The notes under the pieces were generated by a model. It saw nothing but the letters and a program-made list of their open reading frames with translations, did no database searches and was not told the origin of the DNA. From Candidatus Nomurabacteria bacterium (lineage in GTDB: Bacteria > Patescibacteriota > Minisyncoccia > Phycocordibacterales > UBA9973), in NCBI GenBank assembly GCA_026395895.1, contig JAPLXV010000020.1, forward strand, positions 1 to 46,546: 46,546 bases of DNA. Reading direction: 5' to 3'. This document shows positions 12,501 through 39,215 of this stretch, piece after piece. Numbering within the stretch: the stretch's first letter is position 1; each line of letters begins with the position of its first letter. The position numbers were made by a program, and so were the translations under genes.

Positions 12501-13073
12501 AATTCTCCTCTTGAGGAGTACCCGAAGGGGGAGGTGGAAAAATTATCCACCCCGGCTAAAGCCACCCCTCAAGAGGGGAATAAAATACTTCAAAAACTTC
12601 TCCACAAAACAATCAAAAAAGTTTCAGAAGATATAGAAAGTATGCGATTTAATACAGCTATTTCCGCCATGATGATTTTAGCAACTGAAATGGAGAAGAG
12701 TCAAAGCCGGCCCTTAGGAATTCAAAAAGGACCGGCCTTGACTCTTGAAGATTATGAAAAATTCTTGAAGATTCTTTCGCCTTTTGCTCCGCATATTGCG
12801 GAAGAAATCTGGGCTAATTTGGGCAATAAAAAATCTATTAGTTTTTCAAGTTGGCCCAAATGGGACGAAAGTTTAGTAAAAGATCAGGAAATAAAAATTG
12901 CTGTACAAATAAACGGCAAAGTTAGAACTGAAATTTTGATTCAGGCTAACGACAGTGAAGAAGACGTAAAGAAAAAAGCTCTCACAAACCAGACTGTTTT
13001 AAGGTACACAATGAATAAAACACCCCAGAAAATAATTTATGTCAAGAACAGAGTTATTAACATATTGTGTTAA
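9579..13073 (+). CDS. leuS: Leucyl-tRNA synthetase with in-frame RBBP9-like hydrolase and DUF559 domains inserted near CP1, plus additional palindromic insertions
   Basis: HIGH-like GLHVGHPRPYIGMD, KMSKSLGN, TTRADTLFGVTYVVLAPEH, TDTMPNWAGSSWYYLRY; insertion between SEGSEIKFKIK and GEIKVFTTRAD. Confidence 0.95.
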   Translation: MKNYNHKKIEKKVQKEWEKKKIYSASEKSKKPKFYGLIEFPYPSADGLHVGHPRPYIGMDVISRKRRMEGYNVLYPIGWDAFGLPTENYAIKTGKKPAVVTKKNTDTFRRQLKELGFSFDWSREINTTDPKYYKWTQWIFLQFFKKGLAYKAKSYINWCPKDKIGLANEEAVGGICDRCGSATEKREKEQWMLGITKYAERLDKDLDLVDYPERVKTQQRNWIGKSEGSEIKFKIKCNPSLTLPEGEGEYNYLILPGWESSPNDHFYQWLKKELEPAKVEIVKWSGSATEKWVDLVLENYKINRNTIIIGHSLGVAVGMKVIEKLNYKIAGLVSVAGFVEPKFKDHARPFAETFEWKFNFQNIKEKTKFIKILSDKSDYAVSLQQGKILAEELKGQFIEVIANKPHFCGKAEQAILNSILKENTYPLTPSQREGEFGYHTTDPKTWKALQDRVLEMRNNPTQAEDKLWQSLRKNLTGYHFRRQHIIDRFIVDFVCVEKKLVIEIDGDIHDYKKTEDEERTKILNQLGFGVLRFLNNEVIKNKENVLKKIILKLNSVSNTLSFGEGQGGVFVEDLGEIKVFTTRADTLFGVTYVVLAPEHELISKIKPRITNWAEVEKYIKNSKKKSEIERTDDKKEKTGVELKGIKAINPANNEEVPIWIADYVLLDYGTGAVMAVPQHDNRDKEFSEKYKLPIINKPLVDAQEITKKVDGKMVTKFKLRDWVFSRQRYWGEPIPIINCEKCGLVAVPEKDLPVKLPEVKSYQPTDSGESPLASISKWVNVKCPKCKGPAKRETDTMPNWAGSSWYYLRYADSKNNKVFADKKKLKYWLRPTPNPFRRKGNKDTDFSLSFGEGLGGVDWYNGGMEHTTLHLLYSRFWHKFLYDLKLVPTAEPYKKRTSHGMVLGEGGVKMSKSLGNVINPDDIVKIYGADTLRIYEMFMGPFEDSVAWSTESIIGSRRFVEKVWRIGEKIAKQKNSPLEEYPKGEVEKLSTPAKATPQEGNKILQKLLHKTIKKVSEDIESMRFNTAISAMMILATEMEKSQSRPLGIQKGPALTLEDYEKFLKILSPFAPHIAEEIWANLGNKKSISFSSWPKWDESLVKDQEIKIAVQINGKVRTEILIQANDSEEDVKKKALTNQTVLRYTMNKTPQKIIYVKNRVINILC
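10289..10326. repeat. C/G-rich palindromic element at the leuS / RBBP9-like domain boundary
   Basis: acccctccctaaccctccccgaaggagagggagaa. Confidence 0.8.
10851..10886. repeat. C/G-rich palindromic element between the RBBP9-like and DUF559 domains
   Basis: taccccctcaccccctcccaaagggaaggggaattt. Confidence 0.8.
11251..11285. repeat. C/G-rich palindromic element at the DUF559 / leuS boundary
   Basis: ataccctctcctttggggagggtcagggaggggtg. Confidence 0.8.
12071..12150. repeat. Double C/G-rich palindromic element in leuS (PTPNPFRRKGN...SLSFGEGLGG)
   Basis: tacccctaaccccttccgaaggaagggg ... ccctctcctttggggagggtttgggagggg. Confidence 0.85.
12501..12581. repeat. In-frame palindromic element, family A, in leuS
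   Basis: Near-identical to 7957-8044. Confidence 0.92.
12699..12743. repeat. In-frame palindromic element, family B (RPLGIQKGP), in leuS
   Basis: agtcaaagccggcccttaggaattcaaaaaggaccggccttgact. Confidence 0.92.
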
Positions 13074-21039: not shown

Positions 21040-22956
21040 ATGGATTTAAAACATATACGAAACTTTAGTATTATAGCTCACATTGATCACGGCAAGAGTA
21101 CCTTGGCGGACAGGATGCTTGAAATTACACATACTATTCCAGAGCGCAAAATGCGTGACCAAGTTCTTGATTCCATGGAACTTGAACGCGAACGAGGAAT
21201 CACCATCAAAATGCAACCCGTTAGGATGGAATACTCACCTAAAGTTTCCCCGAAGCCCAGCTTAGGGGAAGATCCCCTAAGCTGGGCTTCGGGGAAGAAG
21301 GAGAACGAAACTTATATTTTAAACCTGATTGACACTCCCGGCCACATAGACTTTTCTTATGAAGTTTCTCGAGCCCTAAAGGCCGTAGAAGGCTCTATTT
21401 TATTGGTTGATGCAACACAGGGGGTACAGGCACAAACCCTTACTACGCTTAATATGGCGCGTGAGGGAGGCCTTAAAATCATCCCAGTGCTTTCAAAGAT
21501 TGATTCGCCCTTAGCTCGAGTAGAAGAAGTAAAAAAAGAAGTTGTAGATCTTTTGAATTGCAATCCTGATGAAATACTTTTGGTTTCTGGGCGTACGGGG
21601 GAAGGAGTAGAAAATCTTTTAAATGAAATTATAAAACGTGTTCCACCACCGACCCCTACCCTCCTCCCCCTTACTAAGGGGGAGGTGCCAAAGGCGGAGG
21701 GGGTGCTTCGTGCCCTAGTTTTTGATTTCAAATATTCAAATCATAAAGGAGTAATAGTTTTTATTCGACTGTTGGATGGAAAAGTCAAAAGAGGTGAGAA
21801 TTTGATTTTTTCAGTATCAGGCGAAAAATTTAATTCTCTAGAAGTTGGTACTTTTTCTCCAGAAGAAACTCCACGTGATTTTCTTTCAGCAGGAGATACC
21901 GGTTATATTGTCACCGGTATTAAAAGACCGGGTATTGCTTCGGTTGGGGATACTATCACTAAGGAGAAAAATCCATTACCTGCACTTGCTGGTTATATGC
22001 AACCAATGCCTGTGGTTTGGGCTTCTGTTTTTCCAGAAGATGCGGATGATTTTATAGAACTTAAATCTGCACTAGGTAAATTAAAACTTTCTGATTCCTC
22101 TTTTTCTTATGAGGAAGAATCATCTGGGTCTCTTGGGCGTGGTTTTCGTTGTGGTTTTTTAGGGATGTTACATTTGGAAATTATTACCGAAAGATTAAGA
22201 AGAGAGTTTAATTTAAAATTAGTTATTACTACGCCGTCTATAACTTATGAAGTGATCCTAAAAAGAGGCAACAATGAAAAAATTTACCCGCACACTAAAA
22301 ATAGTGTGCGGGTGTATTCACCGTATTTTTTTCCAGATGACGGAAACATAGAAACTGTATTGGAGCCTTGGGTAAAATTAAAAGTGATTACTCCGGTAAA
22401 ATATTTAGGTAATATTATGCAGTTACTTTTTGATCACGAGGCAGAAATAGGGGAAACAAATAACTTTGGGAACAATCGTTCTTCTTTATCTGTTAAAATG
22501 CCACTTCGGGAACTGATGCGTAATTTTTTTGATGAGTTAAAAAGTGTTTCATCCGGCTATGGGTCAATTTCTTACGAAATAGATGAAATGCGAGAAGCAA
22601 ATGTTACCAGACTGGATCTTTTAGTGGCTGATGAAGTTGTACCGGCTTTTTCTAAGGTTGTTTCTAAAAAAAGAGCGGAAGAGGAAGCAGAAGAAGCAGT
22701 AGAAAAATTAGCAAATTTATTGCCTCGGCAAATGTTTACTTTAAAAATTCAAGGCCGTGCGCTTGGACGTATTATTTCTTCTCGCACGCTTTCTGGGATG
22801 AAAAAAGACGTTACTCAACATATGTATGGAGGTGATATCACTCGCAAAATGAAACTTCGCGAAAAGCAGAAAAAAGGAAAAAAGAAAATGAAAGAACGCG
22901 GAAAAGTAAATATTCCACAAAATGTATTTTTGAAAATGATGATAAAAGGAGAATAA
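21040..22956 (+). CDS. lepA: Elongation factor 4 (LepA)
   Basis: IRNFSIIAHIDHGKSTLADRMLE; DTPGHIDFSYEVSRALKAVEG; GFRCGFLGMLHLEIITERL; YGGDITRKMKLREKQKKGKKKMK. Confidence 0.96.
   Translation: MDLKHIRNFSIIAHIDHGKSTLADRMLEITHTIPERKMRDQVLDSMELERERGITIKMQPVRMEYSPKVSPKPSLGEDPLSWASGKKENETYILNLIDTPGHIDFSYEVSRALKAVEGSILLVDATQGVQAQTLTTLNMAREGGLKIIPVLSKIDSPLARVEEVKKEVVDLLNCNPDEILLVSGRTGEGVENLLNEIIKRVPPPTPTLLPLTKGEVPKAEGVLRALVFDFKYSNHKGVIVFIRLLDGKVKRGENLIFSVSGEKFNSLEVGTFSPEETPRDFLSAGDTGYIVTGIKRPGIASVGDTITKEKNPLPALAGYMQPMPVVWASVFPEDADDFIELKSALGKLKLSDSSFSYEEESSGSLGRGFRCGFLGMLHLEIITERLRREFNLKLVITTPSITYEVILKRGNNEKIYPHTKNSVRVYSPYFFPDDGNIETVLEPWVKLKVITPVKYLGNIMQLLFDHEAEIGETNNFGNNRSSLSVKMPLRELMRNFFDELKSVSSGYGSISYEIDEMREANVTRLDLLVADEVVPAFSKVVSKKRAEEEAEEAVEKLANLLPRQMFTLKIQGRALGRIISSRTLSGMKKDVTQHMYGGDITRKMKLREKQKKGKKKMKERGKVNIPQNVFLKMMIKGE
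21246..21296. repeat. In-frame hairpin in lepA, perfect 23-bp stem and 5-nt loop
   Basis: ttccccgaagcccagcttagggg-aagat-cccctaagctgggcttcggggaa. Confidence 0.95.
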
Positions 22957-25823: not shown

Positions 25824-26687
25824 ATGAGCAAATCTTTCTTTTTTGTTGATGATAGTGGTTCAAAAGAGTGGGAAACACCTTATGCTTTTGAATTTACAAA
25901 AAAGCCACCGATTAGAAATGAAGATAATTTAAAATTTTGGCGAGGGAATTACTTTGTTCTTGCTGGTATATATGTTTCTACTGATTCAATCGCAATAATA
26001 AATCCAGAAATAAATATTCTAAAAAAGAATTTTTTTGGAACAAAATATGTAGAAATTAAGTCAGAATGGTTAAGAAATCCACACAAAAGAAGAAAAAAAT
26101 ATCTTGAACCATATAGTAAAACTGAAGAAGAACTTAAAAAATTTGTCGAAGAGAAATGGTATGGTTTATTTGGAAAATATAAAAATGAAATTCAAATACA
26201 GGCATTTGTTTTAGATAAACGTTTTTATAGCAAAAAGAGAGAAAAAGAAACTCCATTACAAGAACTTATACAAGTTTTATTTGATCGAGTTGAACTTCAT
26301 CCAAACTGTGATTGCGAAATTGTTTTTGATCAAATGGATGCAAATATTAAATCACAAAAACATAATCAAGGAGTTATTTTAAAAATTTCTAAAAAAGAAT
26401 TAGACCTAAGATCTTTCTATAAAAAATATTCTCATACTGACATTCGTTTTGAAGATTCTATTAATTCAAATTTTTTACAAGTTGCTGATACTGTCGCTTA
26501 TAATGTATTTCGTCAGTTTGTTCAACACGGAGATAGTTGGGAAGGTTCAGATGGAGATACTTTAAAAGAGTATTCCTTTTTTTCAAAAATTATTCCTAAT
26601 TTTTATCATAAAAATAAGAGAATAGCAGGATATGGAATTATTAAAATTCCAGACACAAAGAAAATAAGATGGAGTCGTAAAGAATAA
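25824..26687 (+). CDS. DUF3800-family protein
   Basis: FFFVDDSGSKEWETPY N-terminus; conserved acidic DSI...LQVADTVAYNVFRQF C-terminus. Confidence 0.75.
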   Translation: MSKSFFFVDDSGSKEWETPYAFEFTKKPPIRNEDNLKFWRGNYFVLAGIYVSTDSIAIINPEINILKKNFFGTKYVEIKSEWLRNPHKRRKKYLEPYSKTEEELKKFVEEKWYGLFGKYKNEIQIQAFVLDKRFYSKKREKETPLQELIQVLFDRVELHPNCDCEIVFDQMDANIKSQKHNQGVILKISKKELDLRSFYKKYSHTDIRFEDSINSNFLQVADTVAYNVFRQFVQHGDSWEGSDGDTLKEYSFFSKIIPNFYHKNKRIAGYGIIKIPDTKKIRWSRKE

Positions 26688-26866: not shown

Positions 26867-28084
26867 ATGGATAATAAAATCACAAAAATAATAGCTGAAG
26901 AGGTAAAAGATTCACGAGGAAATCCGACTATTAAAGTGACAGTTTTTTCAAATGACAAATTTGATAGTTTTTCTGTACCGTCTGGAGCTTCTACGGGTAC
27001 AAATGAAGCGCATGAATTGAGAGATAAGGACGGTAAAGGTGTAAAAAAAGCAATTGAAAATGTAGATAATATAATTGCTCCGGCACTGGTTGGCCAAAAT
27101 GTTTTGAATCAAGAAGAAATTGATAGAATTATAATTAAACTAGACGGAACCAAAAATAAAGATAATTTAGGTGGCAATGCCATGATTGGCGTAAGTATCG
27201 CTTGTGCTAAAGTAGGAGCAAAAGTTTCTAGCCTAGAAACTTTTGAATATTTAAGAGAACTGAAAGAAATAAAACCATCTAGAAAAGTCCCATATCTTTA
27301 TATGAATTTAATAAATGGGGGTAAGCACGCGAAAGATGATTTGGCTTTTCAGGAATACCATATTGTGCCAGATATTGATTATGTAAATGAAGCGGTTGAA
27401 ATTGGAATTAAAATACAAAATACTTTGAAAGAAATGATAATGAAAGAATTGGGAGAAGAATCTGTTGTTTTGGGAGACGAGGGAGGATTTGCGCCACAAA
27501 TAAGTGATATAAGAAAACCACTTGAATATTTAAGTAGAGCAATCAAAGAAAATGGGTTAAAGGGGAAAGTACGATTGGCTCTGGATGTAGCTGCGTCGTC
27601 TTTTTATGATAACGAAGAATATAAGGTTGATGGGAAAAATATTTCAAAAGAAGAATTAATGAAAATTTATAGTGATTTGATAGTTGAATTTGATTTGCTT
27701 TCTATTGAAGATCCGTTTGATGAAGAAGATTTTGCTAGTTTTAGAAAATTGAAAGAGAATAATAAAGGTCTTTTGGTGGTTGGGGATGATTTGACTGTTA
27801 CAAATTCGTTGCTTCTTGAAAAAGCCATAGCAGAAAAAAGTATCAATGCCATGATTATAAAACCAAATCAAATTGGTACCCTTACCGAAACTCTAGAAAC
27901 TATGCGACTAGCCAGAGAAAATGATATTGAGCTTATTGTAAGTCATAGAAGCGGGGAGACAGATGATGATTTTATTGCCGATTTAGCCTACGCTTTCGGC
28001 TGTTTCGGCCTAAAATCCGGCGCTCCGTCCAAACCAGAAAGAAAAGTAAAATATGATAGGTTAATTAAAATAAGTGAGAAATAA
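26867..28084 (+). CDS. eno: Enolase; start set to ATG 26867
   Basis: ITKIIAEEVKDSRGNPTIKV; SGASTGTNEAHELRD; LGDEGGFAP; SIEDPFDEEDF; IIKPNQIGTLTET; SHRSGETDDDFIADLA. Confidence 0.95.
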   Translation: MDNKITKIIAEEVKDSRGNPTIKVTVFSNDKFDSFSVPSGASTGTNEAHELRDKDGKGVKKAIENVDNIIAPALVGQNVLNQEEIDRIIIKLDGTKNKDNLGGNAMIGVSIACAKVGAKVSSLETFEYLRELKEIKPSRKVPYLYMNLINGGKHAKDDLAFQEYHIVPDIDYVNEAVEIGIKIQNTLKEMIMKELGEESVVLGDEGGFAPQISDIRKPLEYLSRAIKENGLKGKVRLALDVAASSFYDNEEYKVDGKNISKEELMKIYSDLIVEFDLLSIEDPFDEEDFASFRKLKENNKGLLVVGDDLTVTNSLLLEKAIAEKSINAMIIKPNQIGTLTETLETMRLARENDIELIVSHRSGETDDDFIADLAYAFGCFGLKSGAPSKPERKVKYDRLIKISEK

Positions 28085-28089
28085 ATTTT

Positions 28090-28560
28090 ATGGAAATAAA
28101 CCAAGAATCTTTTATAAAAATAAAAGAGAGAGCTGAAAAGTTATATTTAAATAAAAAAGAAATTTATTGTCCGTATTTTCAAAAGAAAGTTATTTTAAAC
28201 TCAGATGGCTTTCATCATTTGCAGTTTTCAAGTCGTAGAGAAAGGAATAAAAATGAACAATTTTTTAAATTTCGTCTTTTGCAATCAGCGTTAGAAATAA
28301 TAGGAAAATCTGGGACTATTCAAGAATACAGGAAAATATTAATGCCGATTGGTAAAAAATCAAAACAAGATGGTTTTGTTAAAATGAAAGAAGTTGAATT
28401 TTGGGGACTGGTTGCTATAGTTGGTGAAAGATCAAAGAAGATAAAAGCCATATTAAGAAGAGTTGGTGATGGGAATATTACTTTTTGGAGTGTTATGCCT
28501 TATTCAAAAATAAAGAATGGTGAACAGAAAATATTTACAGAGGGGATTGAAGAAGATTAA
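28090..28560 (+). CDS. Putative Barnase/EndoU/RelE-like (PBECR-type) nuclease domain protein
   Basis: IYCPYFQKKVILNSDGFHHL...KFRLLQSALEII...KIKAILRRVGDGNITFWSVMPY pattern; family-level call from memory only. Confidence 0.45.
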   Translation: MEINQESFIKIKERAEKLYLNKKEIYCPYFQKKVILNSDGFHHLQFSSRRERNKNEQFFKFRLLQSALEIIGKSGTIQEYRKILMPIGKKSKQDGFVKMKEVEFWGLVAIVGERSKKIKAILRRVGDGNITFWSVMPYSKIKNGEQKIFTEGIEED

Positions 28561-28561
28561 A

Positions 28562-28651
28562 ATAAAAAACGCCTCAAATGAGGTGTTCTTTATTATGCCT
28601 GGCTTCAGCTTAGGAATACCTTAGCTGAACGGGGCTTACGCCCACAGGCAC
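28562..28651 (-). ncRNA. Candidate small RNA with three-way junction and intrinsic terminator
   Basis: Minus strand: TTGATT-17 bp-TATATT promoter (28658-28686); closing helix TGCCTG/CAGGCA, hairpins GGGC-GTAA-GCCC and TTCAGCTAAGG/CCTAAGCTGAA; then CACCTCATTTGAGGCGTTTTTT. Confidence 0.7.
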
Positions 28652-28735
28652 ACAGAGAATATAGCACAAAAATATGATAAAATCAATAAGTAAAGACAAC
28701 TGTGGATAACTTATAATCATGCTTAGAATAAATTT

Positions 28736-29662
28736 ATGAAACCAATATTGATAACAAGTTATGTGAATCCTGATATAGATGGAATGGCTGGGGTTTTTGC
28801 TTATTCTGAGTTTTTGGAAAAAACTGGGATAAATAATACTATAGGTGTGATGGGAGAGATTCACGATGAAGCTAAATATGTTTTAGATCGTTTTAATTTT
28901 GAATATCCACCAGTTATATTAAATTCAAATAATTTTGAAAAAGTTATACTTATTGATACTTCTGATTTAAATGGGATTGAAGGAAATATTGAATTAGAAA
29001 AAGTTATTGAAATTATTGACCATAGAACGATTCATGAAGCAGATAAATTTCCAAATGCAAAAATTCAAATAGAACTTGTCGGTTCAGTTGCTACTTTAAT
29101 TACGGAGAGATTTATTCAAAAAAATATTGAAATATCTAAAAAATCAGCCATTTTACTTTTAAGTGCCATTATTTCTAACACCTTAAATTTTAAAGGTGGA
29201 GTAACAACTGAACGTGACAAAAAAGCAGCAAAATATCTTACTAAAATAGCGCAGTTGGCTGATAATTTTTGGAAAGAACTTTTTGAAGCTAAATCTGATT
29301 TGTCTGGTAATAAATTGAAAGATAGAATCTTAGGAGACTTAGCTTGGTTTAATATTATAGATAAAAAAGTTGGTATAGCTCAACTCGAGATAATTGGAGT
29401 AAAAAAATTAATTGAAAAGAAACAGGATGAAATTATTGAAATTTTAGAAAATATAAAAAAAGAAATGAATTTTGATTTAATTTTTCTAAATGCGATTGAA
29501 CTTGAAGAATATAAAAACTTTTTTGTAACTAGCGATGATAAAACAAAATATCTTTTAGAAAAAATATTGAATGTTAAATTTGATGGATTTGTGGCTGAGA
29601 AATCAAATTTGATTATGCGTAAACAAATTGTTCCATTATTAAAAGAAGAATTGGAGAAGTAA
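28736..29662 (+). CDS. DHH-family phosphoesterase / Mn-dependent inorganic pyrophosphatase-like
   Basis: ITSYVNPDIDGMAGVFAYSEFL; VILIDTSDLNGIE; IIDHRTIHEAD. Confidence 0.8.
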   Translation: MKPILITSYVNPDIDGMAGVFAYSEFLEKTGINNTIGVMGEIHDEAKYVLDRFNFEYPPVILNSNNFEKVILIDTSDLNGIEGNIELEKVIEIIDHRTIHEADKFPNAKIQIELVGSVATLITERFIQKNIEISKKSAILLLSAIISNTLNFKGGVTTERDKKAAKYLTKIAQLADNFWKELFEAKSDLSGNKLKDRILGDLAWFNIIDKKVGIAQLEIIGVKKLIEKKQDEIIEILENIKKEMNFDLIFLNAIELEEYKNFFVTSDDKTKYLLEKILNVKFDGFVAEKSNLIMRKQIVPLLKEELEK

Positions 29663-38090: not shown

Positions 38091-39215
38091 CTACTTTAAC
38101 CGTAGATTGCCCTTGGCTTTTATATTAAAGGTTTTTCTTGTCTTTTTATTGTTTTTTATGTAATTTAAATACCCAGCCATACCTATCATTATAGAGTTAT
38201 CGCCGGTTAATTTATTTTCAGGAAAAAGCAATGCGATGTTTTTTCCCATAGCTTTTTTCATTTCTCTTTGCAGGTGTTTATTACAAGCAACTCCACCTCC
38301 GACTATAATTGTTTTAACTTTATATTTTTCTTTTGCTTTTATTGTTTTATGGATGAGGACATCTACCACAGCGTTTTCAAATTCCAAAGCAATTTTTGCT
38401 TTTGTTTTTTCATCTAGGGTTCCGATTTTTTTAATTAAATAAAGAACAGCGGTTTTTAATCCAGAAAAAGAAAAATCAAAATTTTTACTATGAAGTATAG
38501 GGCGGGGGAGCACAAAAGAGGAGAAAGTCGGCCCTTTTTGGATTCCTAAGGGCCGGCCTTCTCCACAGTTTCTTTCTTTTTCTGCTAATTTTGAGATTTG
38601 AGGTCCGCCGGGGTAGGGAAGATTCATCATTCTAGCAACTTTATCAAATGCTTCTCCGGCGGCATCATCTAATGTTTCGCCTATAATTTTATATTGCATC
38701 CAATTTTTAAAAAGTATCAATTCAGTATGTCCGCCAGAAACAAGCAAAGACAAAACTGGGAAATTTATTTTGGGAATTGTAAATTTACCCTTAGGTTTTC
38801 CAAAGACAGATAGAATATGTCCTTCCATATGATTTACTGGAATGAGAGAAATTTTCCATTTTTTTGCTAATTCTTTTGCGAAAATAATTCCACTCCAAAG
38901 TGCTGGTTCCAGTCCTGGTCCATAAGTTACAGCAATTAGGTTTATGCCCAAATTTCTCAAAGTCGGCCCTTTTTGAATTCTTAAGGGCCGGCCTTGGGAA
39001 ATTTTGAACACTTCTTCTAAAAGTATAGGCAGATTTTTTATATGCTCTCTTTTAGCAAGCATCGGGTACACTCCGCCGTATGGAGCATGAATTTTTATTT
39101 GCGAATTTGAAACATTGGCTAAAATTTTAAAAGAAGGTTTTTTTATACCCCCTTTTACTTCCATTATAGTTATCCCTGTGTCATCACAAGATGTTTCAAT
39201 ACTTAAAATTCTCAT
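38091..39215 (-). CDS. tsaD: tRNA N6-adenosine threonylcarbamoyltransferase with two in-frame palindromic insertions
   Basis: ILSIETSCDDTGITIMEV; NHMEGHILS; LSLLVSGGHTELILF; YPGGPQISKLA; VVGGGVACNKHLQ. Confidence 0.95.
   Translation of the reverse strand: MRILSIETSCDDTGITIMEVKGGIKKPSFKILANVSNSQIKIHAPYGGVYPMLAKREHIKNLPILLEEVFKISQGRPLRIQKGPTLRNLGINLIAVTYGPGLEPALWSGIIFAKELAKKWKISLIPVNHMEGHILSVFGKPKGKFTIPKINFPVLSLLVSGGHTELILFKNWMQYKIIGETLDDAAGEAFDKVARMMNLPYPGGPQISKLAEKERNCGEGRPLGIQKGPTFSSFVLPRPILHSKNFDFSFSGLKTAVLYLIKKIGTLDEKTKAKIALEFENAVVDVLIHKTIKAKEKYKVKTIIVGGGVACNKHLQREMKKAMGKNIALLFPENKLTGDNSIMIGMAGYLNYIKNNKKTRKTFNIKAKGNLRLK
38520..38564. repeat. In-frame palindromic element, family B, copy 1 in tsaD
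   Basis: ggagaaagtcggccctttttggattcctaagggccggccttctcc. Confidence 0.92.
38954..39000. repeat. In-frame palindromic element, family B, copy 2 in tsaD
   Basis: ttctcaaagtcggccctttttgaattcttaagggccggccttgggaa. Confidence 0.92.

Follow-up and report, generated by a model that had tools for sequence, protein, structure and literature searches.

The small RNA gene predicted at positions 28562-28686 of the window (the whole 46,546-nt stretch of DNA analysed) belongs, as judged by sequence comparison, to a module of two genes that had no name so far, pairs the RNA with a toxin-like protein and is spread across Patescibacteria. No published description of such a module was found in a literature search covering few subscription journals. 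The locus is probably a type III-like toxin-antitoxin or abortive-infection module, for which we infer toxicity, RNase activity, binding and a role in defence. The original prediction of a candidate small RNA held as far as it concerns a structured RNA that has a promoter and a terminator of its own, but not for a free-standing gene next to eno. Comparative data strongly support such an RNA, whose transcription is predicted.

The promoter is on the minus strand, as had been proposed, and consists of a -35 hexamer, TTGATT (28681..28686), detected by consensus scan, a spacer of 17 nt and a -10 hexamer, TATATT (28658..28663), which is preceded by TG and separated by 6 nt from the first paired base; the promoter recurs at the same position in 48 of 48 homologous loci. 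The predicted RNA (28595..28651, minus strand, 57 nt; covariance-model match of 87.5 bits) folds into a three-way junction, here named from its 5' end. Helix P1 (28651-28645/28601-28595; GUGCCUG/CAGGCAU) closes the junction and is followed by a single U, by helix P2 (28643-28640/28635-28632; GGGC/GCCC), which is capped by the GNAA tetraloop GUAA, and, after CG, by helix P3 (28629-28623/28610-28604; UUCAGCU/AGCUGAA), which is joined through an A on either side to an inner 3-bp helix (AGG-UAUU-CCU) and is linked back to P1 by GC. The intrinsic terminator of the RNA (28562..28590, minus strand), a hairpin with a U-tract, was the only terminator-like site found within 28000-28800, where 0.2 were expected, and a T-run lies downstream of the RNA in all 48 loci. 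The RNA unit, three-way junction and then terminator, folds at -45.1 kcal/mol (z -5.9), and none of 200 shuffles was as good. Furthermore, the RNA matched none of the Rfam 15 families at gathering score and gave only chance matches at relaxed thresholds, so it does not have to be redefined as a member of a known family. The terminator is nearly symmetric and could also be used by plus-strand toxin transcripts, that is, bidirectionally; sharing with a plus-strand transcript was part of the original prediction, but the gene that reads into it is that of a 156-aa protein and not eno.

The comparison of homologues indicated that the fold is under selection and that the promoter position is conserved. 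In an alignment of 38 RNAs, 97.0% of the cells of the 21-pair structure were paired, compared with only 23-50% for control structures slid by 1-3 columns, and in nine of the 21 pairs both partners had changed (34 double-change cells, 8.2 in shuffled alignments, 0 of 500 shuffles), so the proposed comparative folding did bring out compensatory changes. In 15 more divergent RNAs, double changes were found in seven of the eight P1 pairs. The distance from the end of the TAnnnT box to the first paired base was 6 nt in 35 of the 48 RNAs, 7 nt in nine and 4 nt in four, and therefore the predicted start is the first base of P1, in agreement with the original prediction. Additionally, with a -35 box included, 75% of the 48 upstream regions reached a score of 9 of 12 or higher, vs 5% of shuffled ones. 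It is this comparative evidence that makes the promoter credible, because the pattern by itself is at chance locally (4 found vs 3.7 expected in the consensus scan). That chance-level count in a single region is what would be seen if the locus held only a bidirectional terminator and chance secondary structure, with no functional RNA, but the covariation, the promoter position and the recurrence in dozens of genomes refute this reading, and we give it practically no weight.

The 156-aa gene (28090..28560, plus strand) was unannotated. It starts 5 nt past the eno stop and its stop codon touches the terminator, and gene (plus strand) and RNA (minus strand) are thus placed tail to tail on one common terminator. 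The protein is charged, with a mixed helix/strand model, and we propose it as an RNase toxin with a BECR/RelE-like fold on the basis of this model and of homologues with a convergent RNA. In congeners, eno is directly followed by PPDK or other genes, and the window carries ~1.6 kb of additional DNA with the toxin, the RNA and a DHH/DHHA2 phosphoesterase gene (28736..29662, plus strand; Pfam). The latter, divergent from the RNA promoter, is probably a passenger outside the module. Just 5' of eno, the window also encodes a DUF3800 protein (25824-26687).

The RNA and the protein gene are linked well beyond the window. DNA searches detected RNA homologues, 79-89% identical, in four further genomes from the order, of which two belong to the same genus and two to other families; in three of them a gene for a 156-aa-protein homologue lay tail to tail with the RNA, and in the fourth (G051) the RNA was alone. 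When the 297 genomes of the order were searched with the protein, matches were obtained in 32, and at least 28 of the 30 homologue loci examined had an opposite-strand -10 box, a stem around two hairpins and a terminator just past the protein stop, the exceptions being one atypical (L066) and one frameshifted (L068) locus. A separate collection yielded 36 protein relatives, almost all of them carrying the label Parcubacteria or Patescibacteria, and 34 had the convergent RNA unit; the other two were a truncated homologue (L101) and an internally deleted one (L104). Across the phylum, a protein profile had matches in 34 of 379 genomes, and the convergent unit is present at the majority of these loci, with P2 changed from GGGC/GCCC to AACC/GGUU in some versions of the RNA. 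No clear RNA was seen beside L229-L234 and L238, the short LPD3-like proteins that have diverged most. In Patescibacteria, nearly every intact homologue, down to ~28% identity, is accompanied by the convergent promoter/three-way-junction/terminator unit. From these sequence comparisons, it is well established and almost certain that the RNA exists and is paired with the protein. The distribution is sporadic (about 11% of the genomes of the order), with several paralogues per genome and no fixed neighbourhood.

Some loci were peculiar in other respects. The truncated toxin homologue (L101:3001-3387, 50% identity) is in the genome of a Mucilaginibacter pankratovii isolate, lacks the RNA and possibly was transferred from a patescibacterium. 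Among the loci seen, only L104:2895-3328 has the RNA in front of its internally deleted toxin with both on one strand, which is the classical type III order. Apparent second copies of the RNA, partial or divergent, adjoin the first at L128:1440-1560 and L105:3497-3766.

RNA and protein have also diverged together (Mantel r 0.736, 0 of 2000 permutations), although part of this correlation is due to joint inheritance. The genome of the window has a second pair (G000:C32), whose protein is 32% identical to the first, and each of its two RNAs is closest, at 0.87-0.96 identity, to the RNAs that accompany the same type of protein in other genera. On these identities, the RNA tracks the protein type rather than the genome. 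Tight linkage and co-divergence would fit any obligate ribonucleoprotein, including one in which the RNA serves as guide or cofactor and both partners form an active effector instead of a toxin-antitoxin pair; we regard this as unlikely, since the RNA has no variable guide segment and a cofactor role would leave unexplained both its retention after toxin loss and its carriage alone by phages, described below.

Convergent genes on a common bidirectional terminator, with a terminator segment that is complementary by position, are likewise compatible with a type I-like antisense antitoxin, in which the RNA would pair with the toxin mRNA and block its translation or stability. Fst RNAI/RNAII is a convergent type I pair whose genes lie tail to tail on a bidirectional terminator, and our locus has the same layout but differs in the lack of an antisense signal and in the large soluble protein. 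Cognate RNA-mRNA duplexes were no better than non-cognate ones (-34.6 vs -34.2, rank 0.499), with the whole mRNA or with its 5' region, the longest perfect complement was at chance (6.87 vs 6.82 nt) and the positional overlap is limited to the terminator. In addition, it is the three-way junction that is conserved and not the overlapping terminator, the toxin is a soluble 156-aa fold rather than a short hydrophobic peptide, and RNA copies occur on phages without terminator overlap with a toxin. An antisense antitoxin is therefore quite improbable, and the absent antisense signal favours direct action of the RNA on the protein.

The nature of this protein was approached by modelling. Two alignments gave AlphaFold2 models with pLDDT of 87 and 84, both of which showed helices followed by four long strands. 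Foldseek against the PDB returned nothing below E 0.001, and the BECR/RelE names come from a second look with VIA-align only, in which CdiA-CT Kp342 (6cp9, Z 4.5) and BrnT (Z 3.9) ranked high for the first model, together with HigB2 (Z 3.0), tied with unrelated chains, and RelE (2khe, Z 4.5), HigB, YafQ and RelK ranked high for the second. All the Z-scores are low (4.5 or less) and sequence identity to BECR toxins is about 13% or less, so the fold was called because the matched names were consistent, the scores being weak. The BECR/RelE fold, in which N-terminal helices precede a four-stranded sheet, is the largest group of RNase toxins. The active site of BECR RNases combines a His in a helix with an S/T in the last core strand (PMC5512222), a layout reproduced by H43, invariant and in helix H38-45, and S134, nearly invariant and in the last strand, E131-137. 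CdiA-CT Kp342 is itself a BECR tRNase, whose active-site residues include H170 and T255 (PMC9086364). The 156-aa protein thus models, weakly, as a BECR/RelE-type RNase fold, and it is the modelled fold alone that points to a putative RNase activity. CdiA-CT Kp342, BrnT and RelE/HigB/YafQ, its best structural neighbours, share the helix His and the strand-4 S/T but are neutralised by immunity or antitoxin proteins, whereas we propose an RNA here.

The protein also appears to be distantly related to the phage domain LPD3. LPD3 proteins were the top-ranked matches among viral predicted structures, and two homologues (L062, 28.2 bits; L069, 37.1 bits) exceeded the Pfam cut-off of 27 for LPD3 (PF18798), with the other members below it and no Pfam match, LPD3 included, for the window protein. 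LPD3 is a domain of large injected phage polyvalent proteins (PMC5512222), whereas the window protein is the product of a stand-alone gene that has an RNA as partner. No match to ToxN, AbiQ, CptN or TenpN was obtained for the window protein in Pfam or PADLOC, or for 24 homologues in Pfam and NCBIfam, and Abi_2/AbiD/F was likewise absent for the window protein (Pfam, PADLOC) and the 24 homologues (Pfam). The protein found no reliable family assignment in NCBIfam, PHROGs or PADLOC, and a PDB sequence search gave no match.

An antitoxin is expected to outlive its toxin, and this asymmetry was found. When the 297 genomes of the order were scanned with a covariance model of the RNA (R1), it matched in 34. 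Among 37 full-length matches, 21 adjoin a match to the protein, which is broken in some cases, and the other 16 lack such a neighbour; in eight RNA-bearing genomes, a search relaxed to E 10 found no toxin at all. In one locus (L110) the toxin is reduced to its last codons (FTEGIEE-stop) beside an intact RNA, two others (L125, L131) look alike, and a further two (L133, L136) carry the RNA with broken toxins. These orphan RNAs, which persist with promoter and fold intact, could also be stable or regulatory RNAs with a cellular role of their own, the protein being a processing or binding partner and no toxin system being involved; the placement of some copies in tRNA arrays and in tmRNA (see below) fits such a role. 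The sporadic distribution, the several paralogues per genome, the many decayed proteins, the BECR/RelE-like fold and the variable neighbourhood all speak against it, and we consider it as improbable as the antisense reading. A 14.5-bit R1 match within the window (21243-21299, ~57 nt) was rejected as a member, as it is a perfect 24-bp inverted repeat inside an ORF. This ORF resembles a translation factor (LepA/EF-4-like) and the palindrome is apparently in frame, a possible in-gene palindromic insertion.

The RNA was also found on phages. A scan of IMG/VR with a 20-nt RNA core pattern retrieved L242 and L241, and a looser pattern L243-L247, with R1 scores of 84.6 bits for L242, 59.9 for L245 and L246 (same sequence), 42.4 for L243 and L244 (same sequence) and 31.5 for L241; L247 (16.8 bits) was left out of the count as a phage copy. 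At least four phage lineages thus have the RNA without the toxin, since no toxin relative is encoded on the RNA-bearing contigs (best tblastn E 0.04). L242 has terminase and P22-like portal genes, and its RNA has a TTGACT/TATAAT promoter at the usual position. L245 carries genes for terminase, portal and capsid, and the RNA copy lies between tRNA-Lys and tRNA-Gly in an 18-gene tRNA array (L245:629-2257). In L244, terminase and portal genes are just downstream. L241, which encodes a large protein 37% identical to the L242 portal, carries a trimmed RNA copy (L241:985-1032) inside a tmRNA (771-1121), where, by its place in the Rfam alignment, we read it as appearing to replace a downstream pseudoknot. 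Host and phage copies have in common GUGGGCGNAAGCCCCGUUC and a 3' GAAG, and vary in the length of P1 and the tip of P3; the conserved parts may constitute the recognition core. No match was found for the window protein in phage and plasmid collections (tblastn), for two toxin proteins in viral contigs, or for subfamily B and C RNA motifs in viral scans. Phage RNA without toxin is what would be expected if the RNA disarms a bacterial defence toxin. The phage PhiTE escapes ToxIN by RNA mimicry (PMC3475682).

Taken as a toxin-antitoxin module, the locus could function as follows. The 156-aa protein would be a BECR/RelE-fold endoribonuclease toxin, and the ~60-nt RNA, expressed from its own promoter, would fold, stay in excess and neutralise the toxin by direct binding through a recognition core made up of the GNRA-capped P2 hairpin, the CGUUC linker and the 3' GAAG, while the common bidirectional terminator would hold the convergent transcripts apart. 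On shut-off of host transcription by a phage, the RNA would decay first and the toxin would be freed, and phages could counter this with toxin-less RNA as a decoy. Direct neutralisation is supported indirectly, as it fits the linkage, the co-divergence, the lack of antisense signal and the phage-borne RNA.

In type III systems (ToxIN, AbiQ/antiQ, CptIN, TenpIN), an RNA binds and neutralises an endoribonuclease toxin by which it is also processed. The module resembles these systems in opposing a small structured RNA to an endoribonuclease toxin (proposed here) of similar size, in the terminator next to the RNA and in its sporadic distribution. However, type III RNAs are tandem repeats with pseudoknots located upstream of, and co-transcribed with, a toxin of the ToxN family, whereas here a single non-repeated three-way junction has its own promoter on the opposite strand, downstream in nearly all loci, and the protein is not ToxN by Pfam and is modelled as BECR/RelE-like. 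As neither the toxin family nor the gene layout agreed when tested, the module cannot be classed as type III; it appears to work like type III yet to form a separate class. A second parallel is AbiF/RCd22 of Clostridioides difficile, where a toxic protein is paired with an ncRNA that acts in trans by direct binding, as proposed here (PMC12373285). AbiF belongs to the Abi_2/AbiD/F family, with links to Cas13, and RCd22, which has two abiF motifs, precedes the gene on the same strand (PMC12373285), whereas our module is convergent and has no Abi_2 match.

On balance, we favour an independently evolved class of RNA antitoxin, with a BECR/RelE-fold RNase and a convergent three-way-junction RNA, widespread in Patescibacteria and countered by phage RNA decoys, although with less confidence than the toxin-antitoxin reading itself. 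The partners of RNA antitoxins described so far are, to our knowledge, ToxN-like toxins together with a few Abi proteins, and not toxins of the BECR/RelE fold, and we know of few anti-phage defences in Patescibacteria. If our reading is correct, RNA neutralisation of protein toxins would have arisen again with a different RNA, fold and gene order, and the phage decoys would be standing natural counter-defences. The RNA model is also a way to find phages that attack the mostly uncultured Patescibacteria, and the module is small, with direct predictions testable in E. coli.

Lastly, two kinds of repeats were observed elsewhere in the window. GC-rich hairpin repeats (AAAGTCGGCCCTT...AAGGGCCGGCCTT) are dispersed at 12703-12739, 38524-38560 and 38959-38995, and a perfect 119-nt inverted repeat (43701-43819/46428-46546), the second arm of which is the contig end, is probably a repeat or an assembly end.
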